A stretch of DNA of 64,000 bases, taken from assembly GCA_006384855.1 (NCBI GenBank), contig VCJN01003322.1, forward strand, positions 1-64,000, given 5' to 3'. The first letter of the stretch is position 1. The number at the start of each line of letters is the position of its first letter. Under the pieces are notes generated by a model. That model saw only the letters and a program-made list of their open reading frames with translations, was not told where the DNA came from and searched no databases. Source of the DNA: Tetraselmis striata (lineage: Eukaryota > Chlorophyta > Chlorodendrophyceae > Chlorodendrales > Chlorodendraceae). The translations under genes and the position numbers were made by a program. Below, piece by piece: positions 1,895-53,469 of this stretch.

Positions 1895-4800
1895 TTGCAC
1901 GCAACAATGACGAGCCATACCGTCCGTCACGGGCTGGCATCCGCGACAGGCTGCCCGCCTGCTAGCGTACGTGCTCAACGGCGCCTTTCGTCAGCTGCAT
2001 CATCATCGCCAAATTTGCCGTCACTATCAACCCTCTGGTATACCCTAATTTGTCCCAGGGGCTCTGTTGGTCGTGATTTCGGGAGCAGCGGCACACGAAT
2101 TCGTCAAGCGTTGCAGATCAACGCAGCGACGTCATCAGCAGCAGGTACTGCTGCTGCCCTCAGAACAGCAGCTCAGCCACTACCGCTTCCTGTTACAAAC
2201 CTCGCGCTGCGTCGTCTCGCCGTTTCCCTTCTGCTCCTCCTTGCCACGGACGCGGACGCCACCCCGCCGACACCACCACCAGCGTCGGGAAATCCATCAC
2301 CGCAGCAGCAGCAGTGCCGAGCGGACTTGGACGGCGCGATGGACGTCAGCGCTTTCATCAGCCGCATTAACGCGGAGTACGAAGAGGTAGGTAACAGGGG
2401 TGGGGTTTTTTCCAGGCGGGGGCCATGTATCGCGCCGATCGTTTTCAACGGCGATCTAGCGCGCCACGGCATAGGAGCGTCGTTCGACGGCAGGAAGCGC
2501 CCGCGGGAGCTGCGCCTGTTCCTTATCGGCGATTTGTATCAGCGGCCGCGCTATTCATGCTTAGCCCGTCGCGTTTCGGCGCTACCTGCGCTCTGAAAGC
2601 TACTATCCGTGCCCGTGCTTGCTGAGGCAGCCGCGTGGCTCGACGCGGCGCTCCCAAAACGTTCAGTGCTTCGCCAGGCCGCACTTATAAAACACTCTGC
2701 GACGCTATTGCGCAATAATCCTGTCGGTGGCGGCGCGACTACGTGTGTCCGAGTGCTACGGCCACCTGGACAGGGAGGCATGTGTTTGCCAGGCTCCGCG
2801 GTTGTTGAGGCGTCGTCTGCCGTGGCTAGCGCCTGTTGGCCCTGACTTGGCTCTGCCGGCGCCTGGCAGAAACACCTGGCGTATGAGAAGAACTTTTGGT
2901 CGACAAAGATGGGGCTCAAGGGGGCCAGCTCAGAAGCGCTGACGAGTACCAAGTCAGCGTACGACGCGTTCCTGGCGGACGCCGAGAACCTCAAGGCCGT
3001 GAAGGAGCACTTGAAGGCGGAGGGGTGCGGGCATGCTGGGAGCCCATCCCTTACTTGACACGGAGAAGGGATAACAGGGAGGAGAGGCGGCCCGGGGGGG
3101 GGGGGGGGGGGGGGGGGGGGGTTCAGCGACCGGCATGTCTTTGTGGTGCTGGGCCGATAGCTTCGTTTTCCGGTAGCTCAGCACTTGACGGGCACTGCGC
3201 CCCGGCCAGCCTGACCCCGCAGCAGGAGAAGGTGCTGAAGATAATGGAGAAGACGTTCGCCAGCTACATGATTGAGGACCCAAAGGCATCCGCCCTCAAG
3301 GACAAGCTCAACTCCATCGAGGTGCGTGTTCACCCCGTTTGCAGAAATCGCCTGCTCATCTGCTGCCATCTCCGGGGCTCACGCGCCGCCGGGTTGGTTT
3401 CACGGCGCTCAGGCGGAGCTGGCCCAGGCGCGCAACACCATGAACCTCGGCTACACTGACCCGGCCACCAAAGAGTTTGTCAAGGCCTCGTCGGTGCAGC
3501 TCAGGAACACGATGCGGACGGCAGACGTGGAGGAGCAGAGGCGCGCTTGCTATGAGGTGGACAGCGAGCCCCCTAGCTTAGCCCAGGACACTGCGAACAC
3601 ACTTCGCCCCCCCCCCCCCCCCCCCCCCCCCTCCCCCCACACCGCAGCACCGCACATGTGAAGCGCATGGCGTGCTCGGTCTATCATCGCCTGAGCGGGC
3701 GTGCTTGGCTCGCAGGGGATGCGCGGCATTGGCCCCTTTGTGGCGGAGCGCTTTGTTGAGATCGTGAAGATCCGCAACCAGGTGGCTCGCGCCCTGGGGT
3801 ACGAGGACTACTACGACTACAAGGTCACCACCACGGAGGGCTTTGGCAAGGGGCGCCTGTTTGAGATCCTGGGCGGCCTGGAGGAGCAGACACGCCCGCT
3901 CATGGAGGCGGCGCGGAAGGAGCTCGCCACGCAGAAGGGCGAGGCGGCGCTGTGCCCTTGGAACATGGGGTACTTCCTCACCGGCGACATCGAGAAGGAG
4001 ATGGTGGGGCGGGCCCTCGCCTGCCTGCGCCTCTCTGCCGGCTAACCCACCAAACCGACGCAAAGCCGCTTCAACGGCGATGCGGGGCGTTAACGCGGGA
4101 TGCACCTGCCCCCATTTTGCAGGACCCCTACTTCCCATTTGAGGATGCGGTGGATGTCTGGGCGCGGAGCTTTGCCGCCCTGGGCATCAACTACATGTAG
4201 GCGCCACCCGCGCCACCTGCCACTTGGCCTGAATGCAGATGCGGTATCGACTGCTTGGGGTGTTTCCCTACACCACGGCAAGCCCTAATGACGCTTTCCC
4301 CCCACCTCCAGGGGCGGCACGATGCAGATGGACCTGTGCGACCGTGATGGGAAGTACTCCAATGGTGAGCAGCGACCCCTTTCTCCCCCAGCGGCATCGC
4401 TCATCCGAGCCCCCTGGGGCACATTGAATGAATGGGGCGTCGCTCAGCTGACCCCGTGCCGCCCGCCCGCCACGCCCCAGGCTTCTGCCACTGGCCGCAG
4501 CCCGCATGGAGAAAGTCCGACGGCTCGTGGGTGCCATCCACCGCCCAGTTGACCTCCCTGGCCACGCCCAACCAGATCGGGTCCGGCAAGACCGCGCTGG
4601 TCACACTCATGCACGAAGGTGCGCGCCCCAGCTTATCCCCGGCAACTGCACAGTGCAGTGCACAAACCCGTGCCCCTTGCGTATCTTTCACCGCATGTAT
4701 GAGGCGGTGTTACATACACGGGTGCCGACGCGGTAATAGGAACAGTGCGAATAAGAACCCGCCTAAGGTTAAATCCAGACGAAACTATAGCGGAATTAAA

Positions 4801-37745: not shown

Positions 37746-40700
37746 TTAAAGTGTCTGTCATCAACGGGACGAAATAGGTACGTCATCAGTGGGACGAAAT
37801 CGTTTAGGGGATTGTCAATCTAATTGTTTGTGCAGAACCTTCGCAAATGCTTCGAGAGCTGGCATGCGCATCAGGATGCATATCGACGGGCTTTTTGGGA
37901 CTCACAGTCGCGCACGCAAGAAGTCTGAACAACTCCAACTTGAACTGGAGAAGATCGGCATCAAAGACAATATGAGCAATGAGTTCGCAAATTTGATCGA
38001 CCTCTGCTCGCGCCCCTCCGGTAAGTTGCCGTCATTGTAGAATTTGGGTTTTCTAGTTGCTCCTTTTCTGGTTTTGACTCAGTTGTTTTGCGTAGTGCCT
38101 TCGAGCCACTTGGGTTGCTTTCTAAGGCCTACCGGCTTGTGAAGCTTGGGGTACGAGGATGGAAGCCAGAGGTAAGCTCCAAGAGTTGGCCGCACACTAC
38201 GAGCGGGAAGTCTATAGACTCAGGCATCTCAATCACGATAGACCACTTTCTCCGAAGGAGCTCGGCGCAGTTTATGAAACCATTCGGAAGGCTATCCATG
38301 CAATTCTCGATGACGAGAAGTACGGCTTCGGCAATGACCGAGCTAACTTCCGAGTCGCCGACATGAATGTAAGTTGCGACCCACCATGTTCATTACCCCC
38401 CCCCCCCCCCCATCCAATAATATCATTCCTATCTGATTCTCGAAGCCGTGTTGCGACCCAAGATGCCGGCTTTGGCCCCAAGGCACCATGGCTTGAGGAG
38501 TCGTCTCTTTCAAAGCAGAGCGACGGCGCGGATCTTCCTATGGGGCGGATGTACTTGGTGGTTGGCTTGGTCTTCCAAGGCGAATACTTTGCGACCCCGA
38601 ACCTCTCCCACTTGGTACAAGACGTCAAGGATGCCGGCGACGATGACCCCATGGTTGTTACTCACACCAACTCGGAATGGCTGGCGAAGATTGAGACTTG
38701 GAGGTTTCGCGATCTCATGCGTCGGGCGAGCATCAAGCTCATGAATGCCATTGACACGCCCAAGGGCATGCAGTCAATCAATTGCTGACGCCGGACGAAC
38801 CTGCCGGGAAGTGGGGGAAATACCTCTCGGACCACATCATCGATTATGATGTGTTAGCTATTGTGTCCGATGAGCAAGCGGCCGCTCGCCTTGACGCACT
38901 CACCAGGTTACGAGCCAAGGTTGATGACCTCGGCCCAATTGGCTTCCCCCAAAAGTTCCAAGACTTGTTCAAAGGTTCTCATCGCTCCGGTCCTTTGATG
39001 TTCTTGCATACCCCTCCTGCCAGATCGGGGGGGCATGAAATCCGCCGACTGCCTCATCCCAGTACCGGTTCGAGAGCACATCGCGGCCACCAACACCAAC
39101 ATCAAGACTGAGGCGTACCGCATCAAGAATTAGATGCCGGACTTGGTGATCTCCTTCTTCACACACTTTGCGCTTCTCGCATGTGCTCCCGAGCTTCTCG
39201 CGATTTCCGCTCCAAGTTTTTTCTGAGGAGCTGTGGATATCGATAAAGGTAGTATAATATCGATCCCACAAATGATTTCTGAAATTTTTCATTGTGTGAG
39301 CTAATAACCCGAATCGGTTTTTAAAAACCTCGGGCCGAGGGAATCCCGGTGATGCCCAAAGGCGAAGAAGACATCTTATGCTAAAGATGACGCAGTCTAC
39401 CTCAACATGGAGCGTTTGCAAGACTTGCATCGTGGAAGGCGACTTCAAGGCTCCCGCGACAACAAAATCGTCGCGGAAGCCATGTCGGACCTTGGTGCCT
39501 CCAAGGCCACATTGTTCATTGCCGACGCGCTTTTCGGAGCTAACTCGCACACTACATGGGACTCGTAGGATGATACGTGGGGCACGGACGACTTCAACGA
39601 CGTTTTTACTTTCGCCAGGCAACATACCCCCCCCCCCCCCCCAAACCGTGGTGCTTAGATGGCTGTGCTTTCATTTACCTTATTTCCGATATTCCCCGCG
39701 CATGCAGTTGACTAGTATGACTGGATCTTCTGACGTCTACACCGCTCTCGATGGGCGCCATTTCTTCATTCACCTCTCGGACTAGCAGCTTGGATCCACA
39801 ATCACAGCCGTTCAAAAACAAGCGAAGGACCTTGTCTATCACGTCTTGACTTGGGCCGCCAAAGATTGCGGGATGAGGATGGGCAGTTCTCTGCGTCACT
39901 ACGTTGAGTATTCCCTCTACGCCAGGAAGCCCCCGCCCAGGTGAGCATCGAAGCCGGCAACACTTGTCCCGAGGATCCCCGAAGGTGAGATTTGATTCGT
40001 GGAAGGTAGCCGGCTTGTTTTAAGCATCACTGAGCCGGTTTTGCCTTTCCGGTTCTCCACGTCTATCATGCTCGGCCACTTCAAAGACACCGCTAAGCTG
40101 AAGGACGAGAACAGACAGACCGTGAACAAGTACCAAAAGCATGTCGCGCTCTTTTCCAAGCACTTGAAGATGGCGGCAACAGACGGGACAACCATCGTCG
40201 ACGTCACAGCCGGAACCGGGACTCACAACCGCGGTGCGTGAGGGTGCAACTCGGGCGAATGACATAAAAATGCGAGAGAACATAAAAATAACGCCTCACG
40301 CGGTTTGCCACGCCTTCAAGTCGCTGCGGCCTTTTGTGTGTAGTGGGACTGGATGCATCCTAGTTCCCACACATGAAGTTGAAGACGGTCTTCATCGACA
40401 ACCAAAAGACGCGAATCGCTTGTATGGAATCCAGGTTGAAGTCATGGTTCAAAGAGAAGCCATGGGACAAGACTCAGAGACTGCGTTCAGATGACTTCGA
40501 GAACTGGCCGGGTTTACCCCCGCCAATGACCGTTGCAAAGGAGGGGGACGAGCGTGCAGCGGCGGAGAAGAGGAGACTCGAGGCGGCAGAGCGCCGTGGG
40601 GATTATGTGGTCGATATGTACACTTTTCCTCAAATTAGCCGCTCATATGTGTTGTCCCATCTTTGACGCAGTTTCAGCCTCCGACGGTACACTATAATTG

Positions 40701-40974
40701 TAGCCATCACGTTTCCCTCGCCCTTATGTTTTGTCCCAGCTTCGACGGAGTTTCAGCCCTCAACGGCACAAACTGGTTGTAACCATCACTTTTCCTTCGC
40801 TCTTTCGATTTGTTCCCGCCGGCCTGCCTGGACGATATTCTTTTCCCGACTTGGCACACATGAGCCAACTTGCATTCAGGTCAGGTATCAATCCCACTGC
40901 TGACCCCAAATCCTAATTTAGATCTAACCACAGTGCACCGCGTGCCTCTGTGCAAAATAAGTTGCTTTATTGTT
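37746..40974 (+). mobile_element. Truncated, decayed second copy of the 12.5-kb transposon, inverted
   Basis: This segment is the mirror image of 40979 to about 44270 in the intact copy. It starts with remains of the 24-bp array in reverse orientation (gtcatcagtgggacgaaa, 37776-37800), runs through the last seven exons of the methyltransferase-like gene, and ends in a diverged terminal inverted repeat (40948-40974). Only ACAT (40975-40978) separates it from the intact copy. Confidence 0.85.
37836..40666 (+). pseudogene. Decayed copy of the transposon methyltransferase-like gene (exons 9-15)
   Basis: Same exon order as 44102-41318 in the intact copy, on the opposite strand. It is disabled by a frameshift near 38780, stops at about 39133 (KN-stop-MPDLV), 39567 (DS-stop) and 39783 (LSD-stop-QL), and a frame change at the motif-I site (AGTGT then HNRG). 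Two introns have gained C runs (38396-38411, 39627-39642) absent from the intact copy. Confidence 0.85.
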
Positions 40975-40978
40975 ACAT

Positions 40979-41005
40979 AACAGTAATGTAACCTATTTTG
41001 CCCCG
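40979..41005 (+). repeat. Left terminal inverted repeat
   Basis: 27 bp beginning AACAGTAATG; pairs with 53436-53462 at 25 of 27 positions. Preceded by ACAT. Confidence 0.85.
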
Positions 41006-41317
41006 AGGCACGCGGTGCATTGTGGTTAGGTCTAAATTAGGGTTTGGGGGCAGCAGTGGGATTGCAAGCTAATATGAATGCCGGTTGGTTCATTTTGTGC
41101 CAAGTCGGGGAAACCAATTCCGTCCAAGCAGGGACAAATCAAAAGAGTGAAGGAAACGGGATGGTTACACCTTTGCCATCGGGGGCTGAAACTCTGTCCA
41201 AACTGGGACAAAAAAGAGCGGGGGCCGTGATGGCTACAAGTAGTTTGTGCCGTCCGGGGCTGAAACTCTGTCAAAGCCGGGACAAAACATATGAGCGGCT
41301 AATTTTGCGGAATTGTA

Positions 41318-44300
41318 CTACATATCATCATCTTCGATCACATAATCCCCTCGGCGCTCTGCCGCCTCTTGCCTCTTCTTCGCTGCCGCAAGACGCTCTG
41401 AGAACTCCTCTGACACGGTCATTGGATGGGGTAGACCCGGCCACTTCTCGAAGTCACTTGGACGCAGTTGTTGAGTCTCGTCCCATGGCTTCTCTTTGAA
41501 CCATGAGGTCATCCTGGACTTCATCCCAGCGATTTGCGTCTTCTGGTTGTCAATGAGGATAATCTTCAAGTTCCTGTGTGTGAACGAGTAGGTATGATCC
41601 ATATGGTCCCACCACACGGAAAAGGCCGCAGCGACCTAGAAAAGGCGTGGCAAACCGCACATGGCGTTAGTTTTTTTATGCTGATCCATTAAGACACTCA
41701 CCCGGGTCGCACCCCTCACGCACCGCGGTTGTCCCGGTTCCGGCTGTGACGTCGACGATTGTTGTCCCGTCTGTTGCCGCCATCTTAAGGTGCTTGGCGA
41801 AGAGAGCGATAGGCTTTTGGTACTTGTTCACCGTCTGTCTGTTCTCGTCCTTCAATTTCGAACTGTCTTTGAAGTGACCCAATATGATGGATGTAGAGAA
41901 TCTGGAAAGGCACAACCGGCTTAGCGAGTAGAATATACAAGCCGGCTATTTTCCACGGATCAAATCTCACCTTCGGGGATCATCGAAACGGATGTTGTCA
42001 GCTATGATGCTTGGCGGGGGCTTCCTGACGTAGAGGTAGTACTCAGCGTCGTGACGCAGAGAGCTGCCCATCTTCATCCCGCAATCCTTGGCCCAAGTCA
42101 GGACGTGATAGATGAGGTCCTCAGCTTGTTTTTGAACGGCTGTGATTGCGGATCCAAGTTGCTGGTCCGAGAGGTGAATGAAGAAATGGCACCCATCGAG
42201 AGCAGTGTGGACGTCAGAAGATCCAGTCAGGATATTCAACTGCCTGCGCGGGGGTAAATCGGGAATGAGATAAATGAAAGCACAGTCATCTAGTACGCAC
42301 CGGGGTTGTGGGGGTTGTCTTGCCTGGCGAAAGCAAACACGTCGTTGAAGTCGTCCGTACCCCACGCAGCATCCTTCGAGTCCCATGTGTGCGAACCAGC
42401 TCCGAAAAGCGCGTCGGCAATGAAGACTGTTGCCTTTTTGGCACGAACTGCCGACATGGCGTCCGCGACGAATTGTTTTGTCGCGGGAGCCTTGAAGTTC
42501 CCCTCCACAATGCAAGTCTTGCAAAGCTCCGTGTTCAACCACACCTTGTCATCCTTGTCGACCCCTTCTCCCTTGGGCATCACCGGAAGTTCCTCGGCCT
42601 GTGTGTGTTAGAAAACAGATTCGGGTTAATAGCTCACAACGAAAATTCAGAAGAGCATTTGTGGTTGCACAAGATCTTAGTTACCTTCATCGATATCCAC
42701 AGCTCATTAGAAACATTCGGAGCGGAAGCCGCGATAAGCTCCGGCGCACATGCCAGAAGAGCAAACTCTGTGAAGAAGGAGATGACTAAGTCCGGCATCT
42801 GATTCTTGATGCGATACGCCTCACTCCTGATGGTGGTGTTGGTGGCCGCGATATGCTCTCGAACCGGTAGTGGTGTGAGACAATCGGCGGATTTCATGTC
42901 CCCCCATCTGGCAGGAGGGGTCAGCAAGACCATCAACGGACCGGAGCGATGAGCACCTTTGAACAAATCCTGGAACTTTCTGGGGAAGCCTGTTGGGCCG
43001 AGGTCATCAACATTGGCTCGGAACTTGGTGATGGCGTCAAGGCGAGCGGCCGCTTGCTCATCCGACACTTTGTCTTGCACATCCCAATCGATGATGTGGT
43101 CCGAGAGATATTTCCCCCAATTCCTGGCCGGTTCGTCCGGCGTCAGCAGTTGGATTGTCTCCCTGCCCTTGGCCGTGTCAATGACATTCATGAGCTTGAT
43201 GCTTGCTCGACGCAAGAGATCGCGAAACCTCCAGGTCTCAATCATCGCGAGCCACTCCGCGTTGGTGTGCGTAACAGCCATGGGGCCATTGTCGCCGGCA
43301 TGCTTTATGTCATCCACCAGCTCGTAGAGGCAAGGGGTCACACTGTGCTCGCCTTGGATGAGCAGTCCAACCACCAGGTACATCTGGCCCACAGGGAGAT
43401 CCGCGCTGTCGCTCTGCTTGGCAAGAGACGGCTCGTCTAGCCAGGGCGCATGGGGTCCAAAGCCGACATCCTGGGTCGAAAAACAAACTTCAGTACGGAG
43501 AAAGGAATGATAGTATTCCATGTGATAAAGACACTGGGGTCGGTCACAACTTACCTCCATGAGTGCGACTCGGAAGTGAGCTCTGTCTTTGCCGAAGCCG
43601 TACTTCTTATTATCGAGGATTGCATTGATAGGCTTCCGAATTGCTTCGTAAACCTTGCTCACTTCCTTCTGGGTGAGTTGCCTGCCGGAATTGAGGCGCT
43701 TGACTCGTTTGAGTTCTTGCTCGTAGTACACCAATAGGTCTCCGAGTTTGGTTGTGGCTTCGTCCCTTCCTCGAACCCCGAGGTCCACATGCCGGTAGGC
43801 TTCAGAAATCTGCTCAAGGGGCTCAAAAACACTGCGCAAATCATTTGTCAGAATCTAGCAGCATTAACAACACGATAAATTTTCATCATGTACGCAGCTC
43901 ACCGTTGTGGGCGCGAGCAGAGGTCAATCAAATTTGAGAACTCGCTGCTCTTCTCATCTTTGATGCCGATCTTCTCAAGTTCAACTTGAAGAACTTCAGA
44001 CTTCTTGAACTCCTTCACTACCCTGATTTGCGGAAGTGCCCTAAAGCCGGGGCGATTTGCATCCTGTTCTGCATACCAGCTCTCGAAACATCTGCGAAGG
44101 TTCTGCAGAAACAATTGCACCGATTTCAAAATTCCTAACGCTTGTACCTCGATGACAAACCGTTTCGTCCCGCTGATGACAGAACATTTCGTCCCGCTGA
44201 TGACAGAATGGTTCGTCCCACTGATGAGACCGTTTCGTCCCACTGATGACAGAACGTTTCGTCCCACTGATGACAGACCGTTTCGTCCCGCTGATCACAA

Positions 44301-47300
44301 ACCGTTTCGTCCCACTGATGACAGACCGTTTCATCCCACTGATGACAAACCCTTTCGTCCCACTGATGGCAAACCGTTTCGTCCCACTGATGACAGAACG
44401 TTTCGTCCCGCTGATGACCAACCGTTTCGTCCCGCTGATGACAAACCGTTTCGTCCCGCTGATGACAGAACGTTTCGTCCCACTGATGACAGACCGTTTC
44501 GTCCCACTGATGACAAACCGTTTCGTCCCGCTGATGACGAACCGTTTCGTCCCACTGTGACATATTTTTAACCCGCTAACGACAGAACGACTTTTGTCAC
44601 ACTTTACGCCTATTTGCTGCCACGGTTAGCTAAATAGTAATTTGGGAGAATGGGTCACTCACCAGGAGTTTGTGCATCGACGTGTCTCCCACGACGGTGT
44701 GACCCGCCTCGTTGAGCTTCATAGACATGTAGCGGCAGACTTCCGGCGAGAGGCCGATGTACATCTTAGTCGACGTGAGGTGGATGCCTTTGTTGGCGTT
44801 GTAGATTTCCGGGTAGTTTTCTTTCACCATGCGCTTCGCCTCCCGTCTGTGGCTGCCGTCGATGTTGGCTTGACGCGCGGCGTGGTAGCGAAGAAACTCG
44901 ACGATGACGTCGATCTCTGGCTTGTAGGAATTGGAATCCGCCAACCTCGGGTTCTCCCCGCCTTCGTGTGCTGCGACTAGCTCCTTGAAGTTGGCCATGG
45001 TCTGAGCGAGGGGCTCGTAATCCTCGGATAAAAACTCATGTTTAGGGACTACTGGAAAGGACACCGAGAAATTCTCGGCGGACAGGGAAGGATTTCTCTG
45101 AATAACAAATGCAAGAAATGGATGTCAGTAAGTTGCATTGTGTATTGATTTATATGTAACTACACATATCTGATCCGGATAGGTACAACAGGTCGCGATA
45201 GGCTTTTACCTTGTAGCTTTGCGCCACCATATTGCAGTCTTGCAGCTTTGGGGAACGGAATTCAAATTCCGGCGGCGGAGCGACGAACTTATCGGATATG
45301 AAGCTGAAAATGTAAGGCAGCCCCGTATCCTTGTTGACCACGAGGTTGACTCTGTCGGCGTATAACGTGTTGATGTCGCCACCGTGAGATGTCTTCACCT
45401 CTGGATCAGCAATCTCGACTCTGAGGTGGCCGTAAGAGATCCAGTCGACGGCACCGGTGTTGTGGAAGCCATTCAAGGCCGGCGGGACGGCCAACGTGTT
45501 GACGTATGGAAGCGCGTTCTTAAAATCCTTGTCAATGTTGGCCAAGTCATCGATGTCAATCTGACCCGACGCGAAACCTGTCAGCGCCTGCGCCAGCACA
45601 TTGCGCTCGACCAAAGTCCATGCGTAGTAAGACTGGAACCGCGGTTGGAAGGAGAGTGGCGGCTGGATCGCGTGGAGTAGCAACCTCTCAAAGCTGACAT
45701 CGATCCTGAACTCCTTGTGCACTGTCAAGCGATAAGGTTCAAGAGATATCTGCGGTAACAAGCACAAGAATATTAATACTTATTGAAACACGACATTGAC
45801 ACGAATTCAGACATCATATAAGCTTTACTCACCTCGTAGTTTCCGGCCGAGTCCAGCTCGACGTCCTTGATCTTTCCGATACACGCGAGAAGTGGCCCCT
45901 TCGGATCATCGAAAAAGTCCTTGCCAGTCAGCAGGCTCGCCTTGTGCAATTCGATGTACAAATAGATCTCGACCTCAGCACTTGCGTTCTTGAACCAGTG
46001 GATAGTCCAGCTCCTTGAGGTAAAGTCGCTGTAGGAGTCATCTTCTTGGGACCCGTCCCTCTCGTCAAAGAAGTCGTCGTAAGAGGCGACCGTCATCAGC
46101 TTTGTCTTCCTCTCGGGTCCGGGAGTGCCGGTGATGTCGAGAGCTTGCTTACGCTTCTCCGCCGCCCGTTGCCTCTGTTCTTCCTCTGTGCCGAAGACCT
46201 CTTCATCCGTGCACATACTGAGGAATTCAGGAACCCTTCTCGGAGCCTCGGCAACAGGGGCTCGAGAACAAGAGGCTCCAGAACCAGACGCTTGCCCGGT
46301 AGTCGGCGCTGGAGTCTCGAGCTCGGCCTCTGGCTCCGGGTCAAGCCGAGTGGGCTCGGGCTCCGGCTCGGGCTCCGGCTCGGGCTCCATCTGAGCGGGC
46401 TCAGTTTCAGGCTCATGCCGAGGCTCTGGCTCGGGCTCATTGTGCTCTGTTTCAGGCTCCGGCTCCGGCTCCGGCTCCGGCTCAGTGTGCTCTATTTCAG
46501 GCTCAGGCTCTGTTTCCGGTACTTGAGGCGGGCCTTTAGACAAAGAAGAGCCTTGATTCGGGGAACCTGTAAAGAATGAGTAGAGAGTACTCAACACACC
46601 TGCGGTGGGCGTCACGATTAACTACTGAACGGTATCGCCATACACCATCAAAGCCAAGCGTAATTTTTCTTACCTGGGGATCCCGATTTACCAGCTGCTT
46701 CCGACGCGGTTGCCTGCGCCAATTTACGACCTGTTGGAACGTCAGATAACTCATTGACGAGAAAGTAATCGAAGGGAGTGAGAAGGCAGGGATTGATACT
46801 TTCAGTCACAATTACCTGGAGTCACAATCGTCTCTGAAACCTTCTCTTTTCCCTTGGATTCCTTTGAAGCTTGAGTCGCTACTGGCTCATGTGCACGTCC
46901 TTTCGAACCTGTCAACACACATGATTTTAAACAATGTCAATGTGACACAGTGCACTCACAAAGGCAGGGATTGATACTTTCAGTCACAATTACCTGGAGT
47001 CACAATTGTCTCTGAAACCTTTTCTTTCCCCTTGGATTCCTTTGAAGCTTTAGTCGCTACTGGCACTTGTGCGCGTCCTTTCGAACCTGTCAACACACAT
47101 GATTTCAAACAATGTCAATATGACACAGTGCACACACAAAAATCATGTGATTGGAGAGGCAAGGACCTGATTGATAGTAAGCTTGCATGAGCTTTTCGTA
47201 ATCCATTAGCCTTCGCGCTGTCTGCATTTGAGCATCTGAGAGGACCTGACCGCTCTTGATTCGGTCCCTCAAAAGCAAGGCGGCCGATCTTTCTCCTTGC

Positions 47301-48762
47301 GAGTGCGTGCCGTAAGCCGTCACCCTACCTCCTAAAAGGCTCGGTTTCCAGGGGTTACCTGATGCCTCAGCGCCGGCTCTAGCTGCAGAAGCTGAGGCTG
47401 CACGGCTCTTCTTCGCCGCCGGCTGCTCTGGCACAGAAGATGACGCCTTGTGTTTTCTCCCTACTAGCGCTCCGAGCGCATCGAATTCTTTTGCTTTCTC
47501 GGTAGGTTTTGATGTCCGCTTGGACCTTCGGCCTACAAATATCATACCCTGTCAGATCGTTTCGTCCCGCTGATGACAGACCGTTTCGTCCCACTGATGA
47601 CAGAACGTTTCGTCCCACTGATGACAAACCCTTTCGTCCCGCTGATGACAAACCGTTTCGTCCCACTGATGACAAACCGTTTCGTCCCGCTGATGACAAA
47701 CCGTTTCGTCCCACTGATGACAAACCGTTTCGTCCCGCTGATGACAAACCGTTTCGTCCCACTGATGAAAAACCGTTTCGTCCCACTGATGACAAACCGT
47801 TTCGTCCCACTGATGACAAACCCTTTTGTCCCACTGATGACAAACCGTTTCGTCCCACTGATGACAAAGCGTTTCGTCCCGCTGATGACAAACCGTTTTG
47901 TCCCACTGATGACAAACCGTTTCGTCCCGCTGATGACAAACCGTTTCGTCCCACTGATGACAAACCGTTTCGTCCCACTGATGACAGAACGTTTCGTCCC
48001 GCTGATGACAAACCGTTTCGTCCCACTGATGACAAACCGTTTCGTCCCACTGATGACAAACCGTTTCGTCCCACTGATGACAAAACTATTTTCAATACAT
48101 TATGTACTGCGGTTTAATAATGTAATGTCTTTAAGTACTGCGCTTCACACTAATATTAAACCAATCCTTACGGCGGAGTACAGGCAGAGGTTCCCCCTGG
48201 CCGCTCTTCAACCCCACCCGCTCCCACCACCAATTAGCATCCTTACTGCTTGCCGCAGCTGCCTCGACGGGACGTAATACTACCCTGCAGGACCCTGATG
48301 CCGCTCGTCTCGTTTGGGTTTCTATTCCCACTCGTCTGCCTACACCTCGAGCGGTCCTAGATTACACCGCTTCTACAGGGAACCCTAACCGAACTCGCTA
48401 GATCTGGCCGCATCACGCGTCGAGCAGGCAGGCGGCTACTGTACGCTGCCACTCGTCTGCCTACACCTCGAGTGGTCCTAGATTACACCGCTTCTACAGT
48501 GAACCCTAACCGAACTCGCTAGATCTGGCCGCATCACGCGTCGAGCAGGCAGGCGGCTACTGTACGCTGCCACTCGTCTGCCTACACCTCGAGTGGTCCT
48601 AGATTACACCGCTTCTACAGTGAACCCTAACCGAACTCGCTAGATCTGGCCGTATCACGCGTCGAGCAGGCAGGCAGCTACTGCACGCGCGCGCAACTCA
48701 CCTGGGGTGGCGTCGTCCTTGTCTTCCTTGTCCTTGGCAGGCTCGTTCTTCTTCGGCGCCAT
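41318..48762 (-). CDS. Transposon-borne large protein with a C-terminal beta-class DNA methyltransferase-like domain
   Basis: Fifteen exons on minus: 48762-48702, 47532-47167, 47086-46994, 46908-46816, 46730-46674, 46566-45833, 45749-45210, 45097-44663, 44102-43903, 43831-43555, 43470-42685, 42598-42301, 42239-41971, 41901-41724, 41635-41318. All junctions are in phase except exon 12/13, which needs one base fewer in the C run near 42311; then 1567 aa. The N terminus is Lys-rich with nuclear-signal-like KKSR, then a Glu-Pro acidic repeat region in exon 6. Exons 12-15 resemble N4/N6 DNA methyltransferases: [10 protein letters not shown] where DPPY (motif IV) is expected, then YQKPIALF...[17 protein letters not shown] (motif I with the usual QKP lead-in). 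Motif IV is altered, so activity is doubtful. Residues 200-1200 are unrecognised. Introns 1 and 8 hold 24-bp arrays. Confidence 0.7.
44155..44570. repeat. 24-bp minisatellite, array 1 (about 17 units)
   Basis: Tandem units with core TTTCGTCCC followed by (a/g)CTGATGACA. It lies wholly in intron 8 of the methyltransferase-like gene. Most frames are open because 24 is a multiple of 3 and the unit has no stop, so the long frames over it are artefacts. Confidence 0.97.
46280..46530 (-). repeat. Glu-Pro coding repeat in exon 6
   Basis: Repeated GAGCCC/GAGCCG-type codons give EPEPEPE runs interspersed with T, H and N over about 80 residues of the methyltransferase-like protein. This is likely a flexible acidic linker. 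Confidence 0.85.
46816..47086 (-). repeat. Tandem exon duplication (exons 3 and 4)
   Basis: Two 93-bp exons (47086-46994, 46908-46816) with their flanking intron borders are nearly identical. Each encodes about 31 residues (GSKGRA...[14 protein letters not shown]). Both are in phase, so the protein carries two Lys/Ser-rich copies. Confidence 0.9.
47555..48087. repeat. 24-bp minisatellite, array 2 (about 22 units)
   Basis: Same unit and orientation as array 1. It lies in intron 1 of the methyltransferase-like gene, ending about 20 bp from the exon 2 acceptor (47533). Units differ mainly by G/A at one site and C/T in the core. Confidence 0.97.
48328..48690. repeat. Three tandem copies of a 121-bp unit
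   Basis: Copies start at 48328, 48449 and 48570 and are nearly identical (unit begins ccactcgtctgcc). The block lies in intron 1 of the methyltransferase-like gene, directly after the first exon's donor, and may be regulatory. Confidence 0.95.
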
Positions 48763-49301
48763 TCTGGCGGTAGGTAGGTTGACGCGGTAGATGAGCGGGT
48801 TTCTTGGTGGGAAGCGGTGAGGGAGAGGTGGAAATGACGTGGTTTCTGTCTGCCGCCGCTCTGACCCCTGCTGGACAAACGGCGCGCGTGCGCACACTAT
48901 AGTGTACCTCGTCGTCGTCATCAGGTTCATGTATTTTGCACCGCGACGAATATACAAGGCTAACTACTGCGACTATATATTACTATTACTGGAAGATAAA
49001 ATATTCCCTACTCGAGAGTCATAACGGTACGAGAGTACAGTGGCGTGGCAATAATATTCCTTCATGGGATGATATATTCCTTGGATTGGATTCGGGTGTA
49101 CTTACTAGTATAGAACTATTTCCGACAAACGAAAGAAGCACGAAATAACACGGTATTTGAGTCATCAATTATTTTGACCAGTACCTGGATATTATGCACC
49201 CCGGTCAACGGCCCGTCCGAGAACGGTCATCGGCCGTCACTCTTCCTCACCACAGATCACAGTCCTTCACCCCCCGCCCCCACCCACTCGCCCCGCGCTG
49301 C
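48763..49301. promoter_or_regulatory. Divergent intergenic region of the transposon
   Basis: The 540 bp between the two opposing start codons must hold both promoters. The segment 48930-49160 is AT-rich, unlike the coding flanks. No TATA box can be fixed with confidence. Confidence 0.5.
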
Positions 49302-52300
49302 ATGGCGGCGGTCGAAAGCATGGCCTCTTCTCCAGGATCCGGCGCGTCGGACACTACAGTTACATTACCGCTGTGTTCGTGCCGCAGCGGGTACTCGTGT
49401 GATTGCGACGCGCGTGCGAGTGATCGTAAGGAGCCTGAGAAAAGGAAGTACACGTGGGGCAAGGGCTGCGATGAGGTCGCCGAAAGCGGTAATGGCAAGG
49501 TCTCGTCTCTGATCAGCAAGCGCACCTCTCGCGATTGTATCCGCCTCATGCTCGCCAAGGAGGCTAGCGAGCAGTCGCCATGCTGTTCGCGCAAGTGCGT
49601 GCACAAGCTATACACACAGTGCGGAGAGGCCCTCGTTGATGCCGTGTTGGACCGTGCGTTGACCGTATACTCTGGCAATCAGAACCGCTCCTTTGACCGG
49701 CTCGCTCAGGTTCTCAGGGGTGGCTACGAGTCGGCATCCGACAAGTTCGATTACATGTTCGATCACGGTGGCTACTTGCGATCTTTCGATCATCGCGGCC
49801 CCATCTACACGTGTGGGCGTGCGTGGGAGGTCTTGCATCAGGTCTCGAAACACAGACGTCTCGTGATCCAGCGGTCGGTGGTGGATAACGAACCCACGTA
49901 CATCAGGCAGCGCAAGCAATACGAGAGCAGACAGACCGGACCGAGGGAGCATGTGCGCATGTTTCTCGAGCACTTCTTCTCGGATGACCTCGGTCACGTC
50001 GAGATCATGCCTTTTCATGACGGAAACAGCGAGACCTTCAAGAAGCACCTACCTCCCTGGATGACCAAGATTTGCGTCTACTACTACTACAAGTCGTGGG
50101 CCGAGGACGACAACGCCATTCTCCGTGGTGAGGCCCATTTTGTCCCACTGATGACATACCGTTTCGTCCCGCTGATGACAAACCGTTTCGTCCCGCTGAT
50201 GACAAACCGTTTTGTCCCGCTGATGACAGACCGTTTTGTCCCACTGATGACAGACCGTTTCGTCCCGCTAATTACATACCCTTTCGTCCCGCTGATGACA
50301 AACTGTTTCGTCCCACTGATGACAAACCGTTTCGTCCCACTGATGACAAACCGTTTCGTCCCGCTGATGACAAACCGTTTCGTCCCGCTGATGACAAACC
50401 GTTTCGTCCCACTGATGACAAACCGTTTTGTCCCGCTGATGACAGACCGTTTTGTCCCGCTGATGACGAACCGTTTCGTCCCACTGATGACAAACCGTTT
50501 TGTCCCGCTGATGACAGACCGTTTCGTCCCGCTATCGCCAGAACGTTTAGTCCCACCGACGCCGGACCGATTTCGTCCCACTGATGACAGAACGTTTCGC
50601 ACCGCTCGTGGCATACCGTTTCGTCCCACCGACCACAAAAGTATTTGTCCCACATAATTAGCCGATATCGTCCCACTGCAGAGAGAACGTCTCGTCCCAC
50701 TGCTGAGAGACGGTTTTGTCCCACTACTGACATACCGTTTCGTCACACTGATGACAGATTGTTTCGCCCTGCTGATTACAGAATTATTCACCCACTACCG
50801 ATATAATTATTTCGACCCACTTTAGACCGAACTTTTCTGTCTCGCATTATGACACCTTATTTGTATACCGACCTATCATGCCCCTGCCCCTTTGTAGAGT
50901 TGGCTGCCGAGAGCGAAGTGAAGCTCGCATCGTTCGACACTTTCCGCCGGACTTGGAAGGAAGACTTCCCGGATGTCACCACGCCGAAGGTGAAGCGATT
51001 CAGCCACTGTCCCATATGCGCGGCGGGCAAAGCACTCAGAGACCAAGCTCGCGAGATTTGCACAAAGGACATGACGCCAGAGGAACGTCAAGTGCACCGT
51101 CAACATCAGCAGCTGGTGAGGCGTCAGGTCAGAGCTGAGCAGAAGGTACACCTCGAGAGAGTGCGCCAGGAACGAAGGGATCTGAACAACGCCGTCTTCC
51201 AGTCGCGCCTTGGCCATGGAAACTTCTTCTTCTTCGAAATTGATAGCATGGACTCCGCGAAGACCCTTCTGCCTCACTGGGTTCGCATCCCCAAGACTGT
51301 GAAGCCCGACATGCTCCTCAAGTACCACCTCACCTGTGTGAAGTACGACGGATACCGCCCGGACGACATCTACTACTACACCAACACCATCCCCCACGAT
51401 TCGTCCACGACGTGCACTCTGATATGGATCACGATCATGAAGGTGAGCTCATTAGCCTCCCGATAGGTTCGCCGTGGTTGTCCGGTAGCCATGGACTGAT
51501 GAAATCTGGTCTGCGATGCAGGAAATTCAACACCGTGGTAGAAAGATTCCGTACATCAGAATCCAGATGGACAACACCGTCAGGGAGAACAAGAATAGGA
51601 ACGTGGCGGCCCTCTGCAATTGGCTTGTGTCTATCGGCATCTGCGACGTCATTCATTTGGTCTTCTTGCCTGTCGGGCACACTCACGAACGGGTTGACCA
51701 GATCTTCAGCCGCATCAGTCTTGCGCTATCTCGCAGCTCCGCCTACACAATCGAGGCCTTTCTTGACTTGGTGGCGAAGGCATTCTCGCCCACTCCGGAG
51801 ATTGCTGAGCTCTCATTCTCCCTCGACTTCTCTGAGTGGTTAAGGCCCCATTTCCAAGACCACATTCAGGACATCAGTAAGCCGCACAAATTCGAGTTCA
51901 CCCGTGACGACGCCGCCGCGTCAGGCGGGTCGTTGCGCACCGCCTTGTGGTCCAACACACCGCTTTCTGAGCCCGTGCAGATCTTGAAGAGCGCGCCAAC
52001 TGGGACGCCCGAGATTCGTGCGGGCCGGCCCCTTTTGTACGCTCTCTGCGACAAAAAGAAGCCCGACGCGGTGAAGGTCCAGAGGTACTTGGATGATTTC
52101 AAGAAGGTCAGGTCGTACATCACGGACCTGGCGGTCCAGTGGCACTTCTCCCCAGTCGAGCGCGAGAGCTGGAAGAATCTGCTCGACGACTTGGATGAGA
52201 TGCAAACTGCTCCTTCGGCAGCTTTCTCCGGGTTCTGGCCGCAACGGAAAGAGGAAGTTGACGATTTCTTGCGCGAGCACGGGCAGACCGCGCCTGCTGA

Positions 52301-53169
52301 GGCACGTCACACGATGGCTACCAACGCAGACCTCAACAATGCCGAAGCCGCTCGCGTTGAAGCCGAGGTTCGTGCTCAAGTGCTTCAAGATGACAGCGCC
52401 TTCCGGGGAGTTCACGCCGGCGCCAAGGAGAGGCTTCATGACAACACATCGCCCAGCGATGCAAAGGGCTCGAACCTCGTTGTCATCGACGTCTCCGATG
52501 TGAGTCCCATTGTTTGTCATTTTTGTCCTTTACGGGACAAAACAATTTGGTTCTTCTACCTTGCTTGTTATTTTGTCCCAGCTGGGACAAAAACGGCGTG
52601 GCGTCTCGCTCGGGACTAACATAGCTCGCGGTCTTGGTCATCGTTAGGTGCATGAGGAAGACAAGTGTCCTGAAACTCTTGGTGATTGGGAGTCGAGATT
52701 CGTCATCGGGCTTGTGAAGTCGCGCGAGACTACCGAAGACACGTTGACCGTGGCCGTATACGAGCCCTTCCATGCCGATGCAAAGGGCAAACCCCTCATG
52801 CCCCTATGGTTGTACGCGCAGACAAAAGGAGGGAAGAAGCCAGTTGACACAAGCTGGGAGAAGTGCCTGACGCTTCCTTGGAAGCTTGTTGAAGCCGTCC
52901 CCCTATCGTACGCGAAGGCCATCCACGACGCGTCGGGAAGTCGAGAGGTGTTCAACGAGGACGGCACCATGGTCAGAAAGAAGTGGTACGGTAAAAGCGT
53001 CCAAGTCGTGAAGACATATGCGCAAACTGGGTGGCAAATCAGCCAGCCACGAAACAACTGCGTCCACGTCATGTCAACCACCCCAGCGCAACGCAAACCC
53101 GGCGGAGTCGTCAAGTTTAACGCAGCCACGAAGAAGGACTTGCTTGAGTTGGGGATGCTCAACGAATAA
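49302..53169 (+). CDS. DUF7869-type transposase-like protein
   Basis: Exons: 49302-50127, 50898-51442, 51522-52499, 52648-53169. GT-AG borders, all in phase, 956 aa. ATG 49302 has a good context (gcATGGcg); 49194 is an in-frame alternative. The N terminus has Cys clusters (LCSCRSGYSCDC, SPCCSRKCVH) and a CPIC pair at about residue 313, likely zinc-binding. An RNase H-like core follows: EIDSMDSAKTLLPHW (about 390), IQMDNTVRENKNR (Asp about 474) and PVGHTHERVDQIFSRIS (about 508-524). This trio is characteristic, from memory, of DUF7869 proteins found in transposons of protists and animals; a cut-and-paste role is inferred. Intron 1 is almost entirely the third 24-bp array. Intron 3 contains a perfect 22-bp palindrome made of TTTTGTCCC and its complement (52571-52592). 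Confidence 0.8.
50137..50790. repeat. 24-bp minisatellite, array 3 (about 16 good units plus a decayed tail)
   Basis: Same unit and strand as arrays 1 and 2. Regular to about 50540, then progressively diverged but still showing CGTCCCAC cores to about 50790. It fills intron 1 of the transposase-like gene, starting 10 bp after the donor. Confidence 0.96.
52571..52592. promoter_or_regulatory. Perfect 22-bp palindrome TTTTGTCCC / GGGACAAAA
   Basis: ttttgtcccag followed by its exact complement. A related imperfect pair lies at 52520-52542. It shares the core of the 24-bp repeats and of sites near both transposon ends, as expected of a transposase-binding site. Confidence 0.5.
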
Positions 53170-53435
53170 ACTATCAGCAACGTCTTGTGGCTAGCTAGCC
53201 GCTGGATGTAATAATCATAATAAATATTGATTTCATTGCCTCATCTTGTCCCGTTTTGGACAAAATGCTCCAAAACCAACATTGGATATGCGTCGCGGCT
53301 GGCCTTCATGCTGTTGAATGCTGCACTGCACCCAAGGTCTACAAACCCAAGCTACATCACCAGTGAGTCTTAAGTACTGATAGTAAACCCGGGAACTAGG
53401 GTATAAACAAACCCTACGGTGCAAAATGAATTCCA

Positions 53436-53462
53436 CGGCGCAAAATAGGTTAAATTACTGTT
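53436..53462 (-). repeat. Right terminal inverted repeat
   Basis: Inverted partner of 40979-41005, followed by ACAT at 53463-53466. A second partial copy of its inner part (TTTTGCACCG on the minus strand) lies just inside. Confidence 0.85.
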
Positions 53463-53469
53463 ACATTCG

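Follow-up and report, generated by a model that had tools for sequence, protein, structure and literature searches.

According to the portions of the published accounts considered here, to which all our comparisons with described systems are limited, Sola transposons make 4-bp duplications and encode a DDD transposase (PMC10741241), and a Sola-1 transposon of Ectocarpus, Sola1-1_Ec32, encodes a ParB-methyltransferase on the strand opposite its transposase (PMC12477816; Genome Biol 2025;26:320). The latter account reports like accessory proteins in other algal transposons, citing Iyer et al. 2011 and Petroll et al. 2025. Methyltransferase genes are also contained in Mariner transposons of giant viruses (PMC3627910), and the ParB part of Bce_0392, a ParB-methylase fusion of Bacillus cereus, is reported to nick DNA (PMC5512222). 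Here we analyze a transposon at positions 40979-53462 (12,484 bp) of a 64,000-nucleotide stretch of DNA from the chlorophyte alga Tetraselmis striata (assembly GCA_006384855.1, contig VCJN01003322.1, positions 1 to 64,000; hereafter the window). It contains two spliced, divergent genes, a transposase on the plus strand and a partner on the minus strand. A first-pass annotation of this DNA had taken the pair to be undescribed; a ParB-like/DNA-methyltransferase gene opposite a transposase is in fact in print (PMC12477816), and the pairing of a transposase with a ParB-methyltransferase is already known in kind from other algae. We think it rather probable that the element is a cut-and-paste transposon, probably of Sola-1-like type, which encodes an RNase H-like DUF7869 transposase and a dedicated ParB-methylase-derived protein that binds the element's own DNA.

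Like Sola1-1_Ec32, this is a giant DNA transposon with an N4/N6 methyltransferase gene opposite the transposase, here with a putative ParB-like part, although it measures 12.5 kb rather than 21.5 kb and its partner has 1561 rather than 1104 residues. Motif IV of the Tetraselmis partner is changed to DALF, a possible further difference, and the introns contain minisatellite arrays, of which there is no mention in the considered portions of the Sola1-1_Ec32 account. With Bce_0392 and the bacterial and phage fusions the partner shares an adenine-methylase-like part and, putatively, a ParB-like part, but it is eukaryotic and spliced, its motif IV is altered, and its ParB kinship is judged from a short motif. 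KolobokP and the TET/JBP-bearing fungal transposons likewise have a second, non-transposase gene and differ in superfamily and in the accessory genes themselves (PMC9587614, PMC12730594). The literature searched, in which subscription papers were mostly not included, made no mention of DUF7869 or of the peptide VGHTHED and held no description of this family, of the altered motif IV, or of polar intronic arrays.

The inverted ends of the element agree at 25 of 27 positions (40979-41005 against the reverse complement of 53436-53462) and are flanked on both sides by ACAT, and a 23-base end pattern searched with at most one mismatch in the 224-Mb assembly, which served for all genome-wide searches, gave 537 matches (282 + 255), the reversed control pattern giving 0. 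One hundred of these ends were listed, of which 97 were parsed and three, being of neither end type, were dropped; among the 97 there were 19 inward left/right pairs and no inward same-type pairs, with spans of 11.0-12.9 kb in 14 cases, 7.3 kb in two, and at least 18.6 kb in three. Target duplications were read in eight copies, the window included, for which both end searches fell on one contig at a plausible spacing (C2865, with its ends 23.8 kb apart, was excluded). In seven of the eight the 4-bp duplication is perfect (ACAT, ATAG, TGCA, GTAC, GCTC, CGAC, and TCAC), with no sequence in common.

Empty sites were sought with the joined flanks of two copies, C2644 and C48, as 196-base queries. 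The C2644 query aligns over its whole length with one place in the genome at 95% identity; 111 candidates were obtained for it, and the 39 further places that were scored cross the joint as well. The C48 query aligns over its whole length at 21 places (83-95%), while the flanks of C48 itself align as 1-100 and 97-196 and thus share 4 bases, which are the duplication. Since the joined flanks match uninterrupted sites, the element must have landed in repeats of which empty examples persist in other places, and the ∼93-99% identity between the window and the long blocks that match it in the other copies retrieved indicates fairly recent movement. The element is a complete DNA transposon that has recently been mobile. 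The first-pass annotation had claimed a complete transposon from the 27-bp ends and the ACAT on both sides, and had suggested a genome search for further copies with 4-bp duplications; its reading of the ends is borne out by the sequence and by the 537 matches, and other copies with both genes, these ends, and such duplications exist. Two short copies of ∼7.35 kb were also seen (C70:47941-55284 and C200:44625-51992), and C70, which has a perfect target duplication, either was already short when it moved or lost sequence once inserted.

The counts of gene pairs draw on the best 150 of 548 DUF7869 candidates and on 104 PF01555 matches, which were sorted by hand into 59 of the type found in the window (family A) and 45 others. 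Among the matches listed, 34 of the 59 family-A partner matches have a DUF7869 match within 20 kb, and all 34 pairs are divergent; 7 of 14 partner proteins have a listed transposase whose JGI gene id is one or two steps from their own. None of the 45 others has a listed A-type DUF7869 match within 20 kb. A more distant DUF7869 protein, P0053, is 31% identical to that of family A over half of the latter's length, and a search with it led to a second family, B, on 27 contigs sorted by us, whose first domain piece matches P0053 at ∼47-54%. Eight of the 45 non-A PF01555 matches share a contig with a family-B DUF7869 match, and all eight pairs are divergent, six at a spacing of 10.0-12.2 kb and the other two at 20.9 and 24.7 kb. 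The methyltransferase parts of the two families are 30% identical (E value 1.5e-18), and the right end of family B (reverse complement AACATTGATTCAAAATAAATG) resembles that of family A in its first bases; its left end and target duplication were searched for and not found. Because the same divergent pair occurs in families A and B, it most likely predates the split of these two very diverged families. The 34 of 34 and eight of eight divergent arrangements agree with the earlier suggestion that the second gene is a dedicated partner.

In the transposase, whose introns are all GT-AG and whose exon phases close, the match to PF25273 reaches 149.5 bits against a curated cut-off of 26. The motif IDSMD lies just upstream of or at the start of the DUF7869 domain, and QMDN and GHTHERVD lie inside it, in keeping with the D...DN...GHTHE-D core of the earlier claim. 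In an alignment of 25 DUF7869 proteins IDxMD is found in 22 and GHTHE..D in 18, the misses being gene models without those stretches in the alignment; an xDN pattern occurs in 23, some of these being chance matches elsewhere, and several models are without the QMDN stretch. The conserved IDxMD, xDN, and GHTHE..D would fit an RNase H-like core, and the DUF7869 protein is likely the transposase. Both proteins match JGI Tetstr1 gene models, at up to 98-99% identity, and beyond Tetstr1 the transposase has as relatives a sea cucumber protein and unnamed sequences. Pfam identified no other transposase family in the 25 proteins, only a phage-integrase N-terminal domain in gene model P0049; PDB sequence searches with the transposase and partner alignments gave nothing credible (one match each, E values 0.48 and 2); and the viral contigs scanned with three DUF7869 proteins held no relative.

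The predicted partner gene closes in phase over all 15 exons when intron 12 is read as GC-AG, with exon 12 ending at 42324. Every one of the 18 aligned copies has the GC donor, three of them also showing a base change nearby, and the exon start that follows from this reading aligns to the family-B protein; JGI gene models splice differently at this intron. The apparent one-base exception of the first-pass annotation is thus best read as a GC-AG intron, in preference to a frameshift, and of the two protein lengths given there 956 residues holds for the transposase whereas the 1567 of the partner becomes 1561. Besides its 24-bp array, intron 1 of this gene contains a 121-bp unit repeated three times at 48328-48688, and exon 6 encodes a Glu/Pro-rich repeat (PEPEPE; 46321-46510) whose length differs among copies.

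Features of the element and its two predicted genes in the window
Feature	Position	Strand	Details
Left target site duplication	40975-40978	.	ACAT
Left terminal inverted repeat	40979-41005	+	27 bp, begins AACAGTAATG
Left subterminal repeats	41131-41286	+	GGGACAAA at 41131, 41205, 41279; 74-bp spacing
Partner gene (predicted)	41318-48762	-	1561 residues, 15 exons; last exon includes stop
Partner exons 1-5	48762-48702, 47532-47167, 47086-46994, 46908-46816, 46730-46674	-	
Partner exons 6-10	46566-45833, 45749-45210, 45097-44663, 44102-43903, 43831-43555	-	
Partner exons 11-15	43470-42685, 42598-42324, 42243-41971, 41901-41724, 41635-41318	-	
Exon 14, SAM-binding motif	41724-41901	-	TAGTGTTA in 17/18 copies
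Exon 12, motif IV place	42324-42598	-	IADALFGAG; followed by GC-AG intron
24-bp minisatellite array, partner intron 8	44151-44562	-	16 GGGACRAA, all -
Exon 8, ParB-like motif	44663-45097	-	IDGSHRREA
24-bp minisatellite array, partner intron 1	47558-48084	-	22 GGGACRAA, all -
Transposase gene	49302-53169	+	956 residues, 4 exons: 49302-50127, 50898-51442, 51522-52499, 52648-53169
24-bp minisatellite array, transposase intron 1	50138-50756	-	21 GGGACRAA, all -
DUF7869 domain	51299-51914	+	Residues 410-588, spans intron 2; PF25273, E value 1.1e-43
Right terminal inverted repeat	53436-53462	-	27 bp
Right target site duplication	53463-53466	.	ACAT

The partner matches PF01555 (N6/N4 methylase) over residues 1323-1459 with 28 bits, the cut-off being 26.7 (E value 2.6e-6), and a PHROGs search with the partner returned DNA methyltransferase (E value 1.2e-8). 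Active N6/N4 DNA methyltransferases generally have a motif IV of the form (D/N/S)PP(Y/F/W) or a close variant, and the proline at its third place is generally needed for methylation. The partner departs from active enzymes at this motif and agrees with them at motif I. The place of motif IV is occupied by DALF in family A (DALFG in 17 of 18 copies) and by DSNY in family B; in two phage methylases it reads DPPY (TDPPYG) and DLPY (CDLPYG), so that the third-place proline is kept in the two phage relatives and absent from both families. Alignment with the same phage methylases indicates that the glycine-rich motif I, the site of S-adenosylmethionine (SAM), is kept in the partner. Because motif IV reads DALF, methyl transfer has probably been lost, with the SAM-site motif retained. 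The earlier suggestion of a methyltransferase-like partner, either a working methylase or a dead fold that binds DNA, is strengthened by the PF01555 match in its general part, and the altered motif IV favors the dead DNA-binding fold. A tblastn search of 50,697 phage records with a 796-residue piece of the family-A partner gave no match at an E value of 1; the family-B methyltransferase exon had weak matches in 364 records at E values up to 1, the best being 2e-3 among the 20 matches listed.

The ParB-like part is suggested by exon 8, in which DGSHRRxA is intact in all 17 copies that have this exon and which resembles a ParB/sulfiredoxin motif. The matching exon of family B has IVGNHRREA, within IVGNHRREASKLV, giving a shared pattern IxGxHRREA, and the score of the alignment between the two exons was reached by none of 500 shuffles. 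ParB as a formal Pfam match was rejected, and the term ParB-like is retained for the motif together with the published parallel. On these grounds the partner looks like a ParB-like and N6/N4 DNA-methyltransferase protein.

The element contains 66 copies of the octamer GGGACRAA, as against 2 in the 48.2 kb of the window outside the element and its neighbor. All 59 copies in the three intronic arrays lie on one strand, though the two genes run oppositely, and against the 7 outside the arrays, three of which are spaced at 74 bp near the left end, 200 simulated sequences gave 0.96 on average and 3 at most. The polarity of the arrays extends to other copies: in 18 of them, the 1028 clustered motifs counted within the first 9.8 kb all lie on the same strand, and in 17 of the 18 at least two sites on the opposite, plus strand lie near the left end. 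Genome-wide, 4447 matches were counted for a 70-base array pattern (control 0), those inside and outside elements being pooled. Family B has arrays of its own, with a 25-bp unit containing a perfect palindrome, GGACGCATGCGTCC (C761 (L056), 886-1188 and 3056-3329), and reading of the sequence places one of them after the ParB-like exon and before the next open stretch, likewise as in family A. That the arrays keep a single polarity although the two genes are transcribed in opposite directions suggests a role for them at the level of DNA rather than of RNA.

Selection on the two genes was followed through the ratio of nonsynonymous (dN) to synonymous (dS) divergence. Comparison of partner exons 9-15 with the neighboring copy at 37754-40974 gives a dN of 0.150 and a dS of 0.355, a ratio of 0.42. 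Among the 18 recent copies and the window, the partner ratio by part runs from 0.38 to 0.91, with 0.65 for methyltransferase exons 12-14; exon 1 of the transposase has 0.36 (16 sequences). There is constraint with much decay, and the partner is more weakly constrained than the transposase.

In the reading that we favor, the partner would derive from prokaryotic and phage ParB-methylase proteins and would bind the element's own DNA through its ParB-like and methyltransferase-like parts. The most likely binding sites would be the family-specific repeats, that is, the polar GGGACRAA arrays and the subterminal repeats, and the bound partner may help to bring the ends together or to mark them for the transposase, or may shield the element, keeping its SAM-site motif and probably doing so without methyl transfer. 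The 4-bp duplications are as in Sola-1, and an N6/N4 domain encoded opposite the transposase is as in the ParB-methyltransferase accessory genes. Several observations weigh against this account. The Sola-1 label of the element is provisional; one of the eight copies, C914, is off by one extra base (ATGG on the left, AATGG on the right); and among the matches listed 18 of the 59 partner matches have no DUF7869 match on their contig and 7 have one only more than 20 kb away. No Pfam or NCBIfam ParB match was found to the exons tested, nor a PF02195 match near any listed gene pair, and PHROGs ParB reached an E value of 0.22 for the family-B exon and gave no match for that of family A. The arrays, for their part, may be inert minisatellites. 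A more elaborate version, which we regard as doubtful, is a plasmid-partition-like module: the ParB-derived protein, its methylase now a non-catalytic SAM sensor, would load on the family-specific polar arrays (24-bp in A, 25-bp palindromic in B) and spread over or bridge the 12-kb element, the ends would pair only if the element were intact, and arrays and protein would co-evolve in each family.

Decay of the partner gene also bears on whether it is a captured passenger that merely rides along without a role in mobility. In-frame stops interrupt the aligned partner gene in 11 of 18 copies; only 7 are free of them, and several of these 7 contain insertions or deletions. The pooled partner dN/dS among the 18 recent copies and the window is 0.60, the ParB-like exon having 0.76 and the last exon 0.91. 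Such figures also count against our preferred reading, yet a passenger would hardly be expected to recur as the same divergent pair in a second family with a methyltransferase part 30% identical, or to have the ratio of 0.42 against the older copy, and we consider it quite improbable. The partner could instead be an active N6-adenine/N4-cytosine methyltransferase that marks the element's DNA, for example for expression or as an end mark, as has been proposed for Sola1-1_Ec32 and other algal cases (PMC12477816). The PF01555 score above its cut-off and the retained motif I agree with this, but DALF in 17 of 18 family-A copies, DSNY in family B, and the absence of the third-place proline from both make it an unlikely, if appreciable, possibility. 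That two unrelated elements simply adjoin here, or that the assembly is at fault, is suggested by the diverged, truncated relative (37754-40974) that abuts the left end. Against this stand the 537 ends with inward pairs of like size among those listed, the duplications and empty sites on several contigs, and the consecutive or next-but-one JGI ids of 7 of 14 partner proteins, so that the explanation is vanishingly improbable; an artefact of assembly is ruled out by further copies in which the two genes and the two ends occur together.

The adjoining relative is inverted with respect to the element, with exactly 4 bases (ACAT) between the two; it is 78.6% identical over the first 3.2 kb and contains frame-breaking insertions or deletions, and it is either a chance neighbor or the outcome of insertion favored beside an existing end. 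Elsewhere in the genome, a third DUF7869 group near P0053 was found on 31 contigs sorted by us, including C652, C1024, and C385; none of the 45 non-A PF01555 matches lies on these contigs, any partner of this group not having been sought further. The open reading frames listed on C1597 resemble those of an integrated DNA-virus-like element and include two other DNA methylase genes; the methylase matches there were set aside for that reason. At C1010:88683-100724 a ParB-type match and a strong N6/N4 methylase match lie 11 kb apart, with no link to the families described.

In Tetraselmis striata a single genome has kept the pairing of a transposase with a protein resembling a bacterial-type ParB-methyltransferase in two diverged families. 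The ends there number in the hundreds, and closely similar copies occur along with shortened ones and with paralogous empty sites. With motif IV altered, the distinction between a partner that modifies DNA and one that only binds it becomes directly testable, and the element-specific polar arrays provide a concrete candidate for the binding site.

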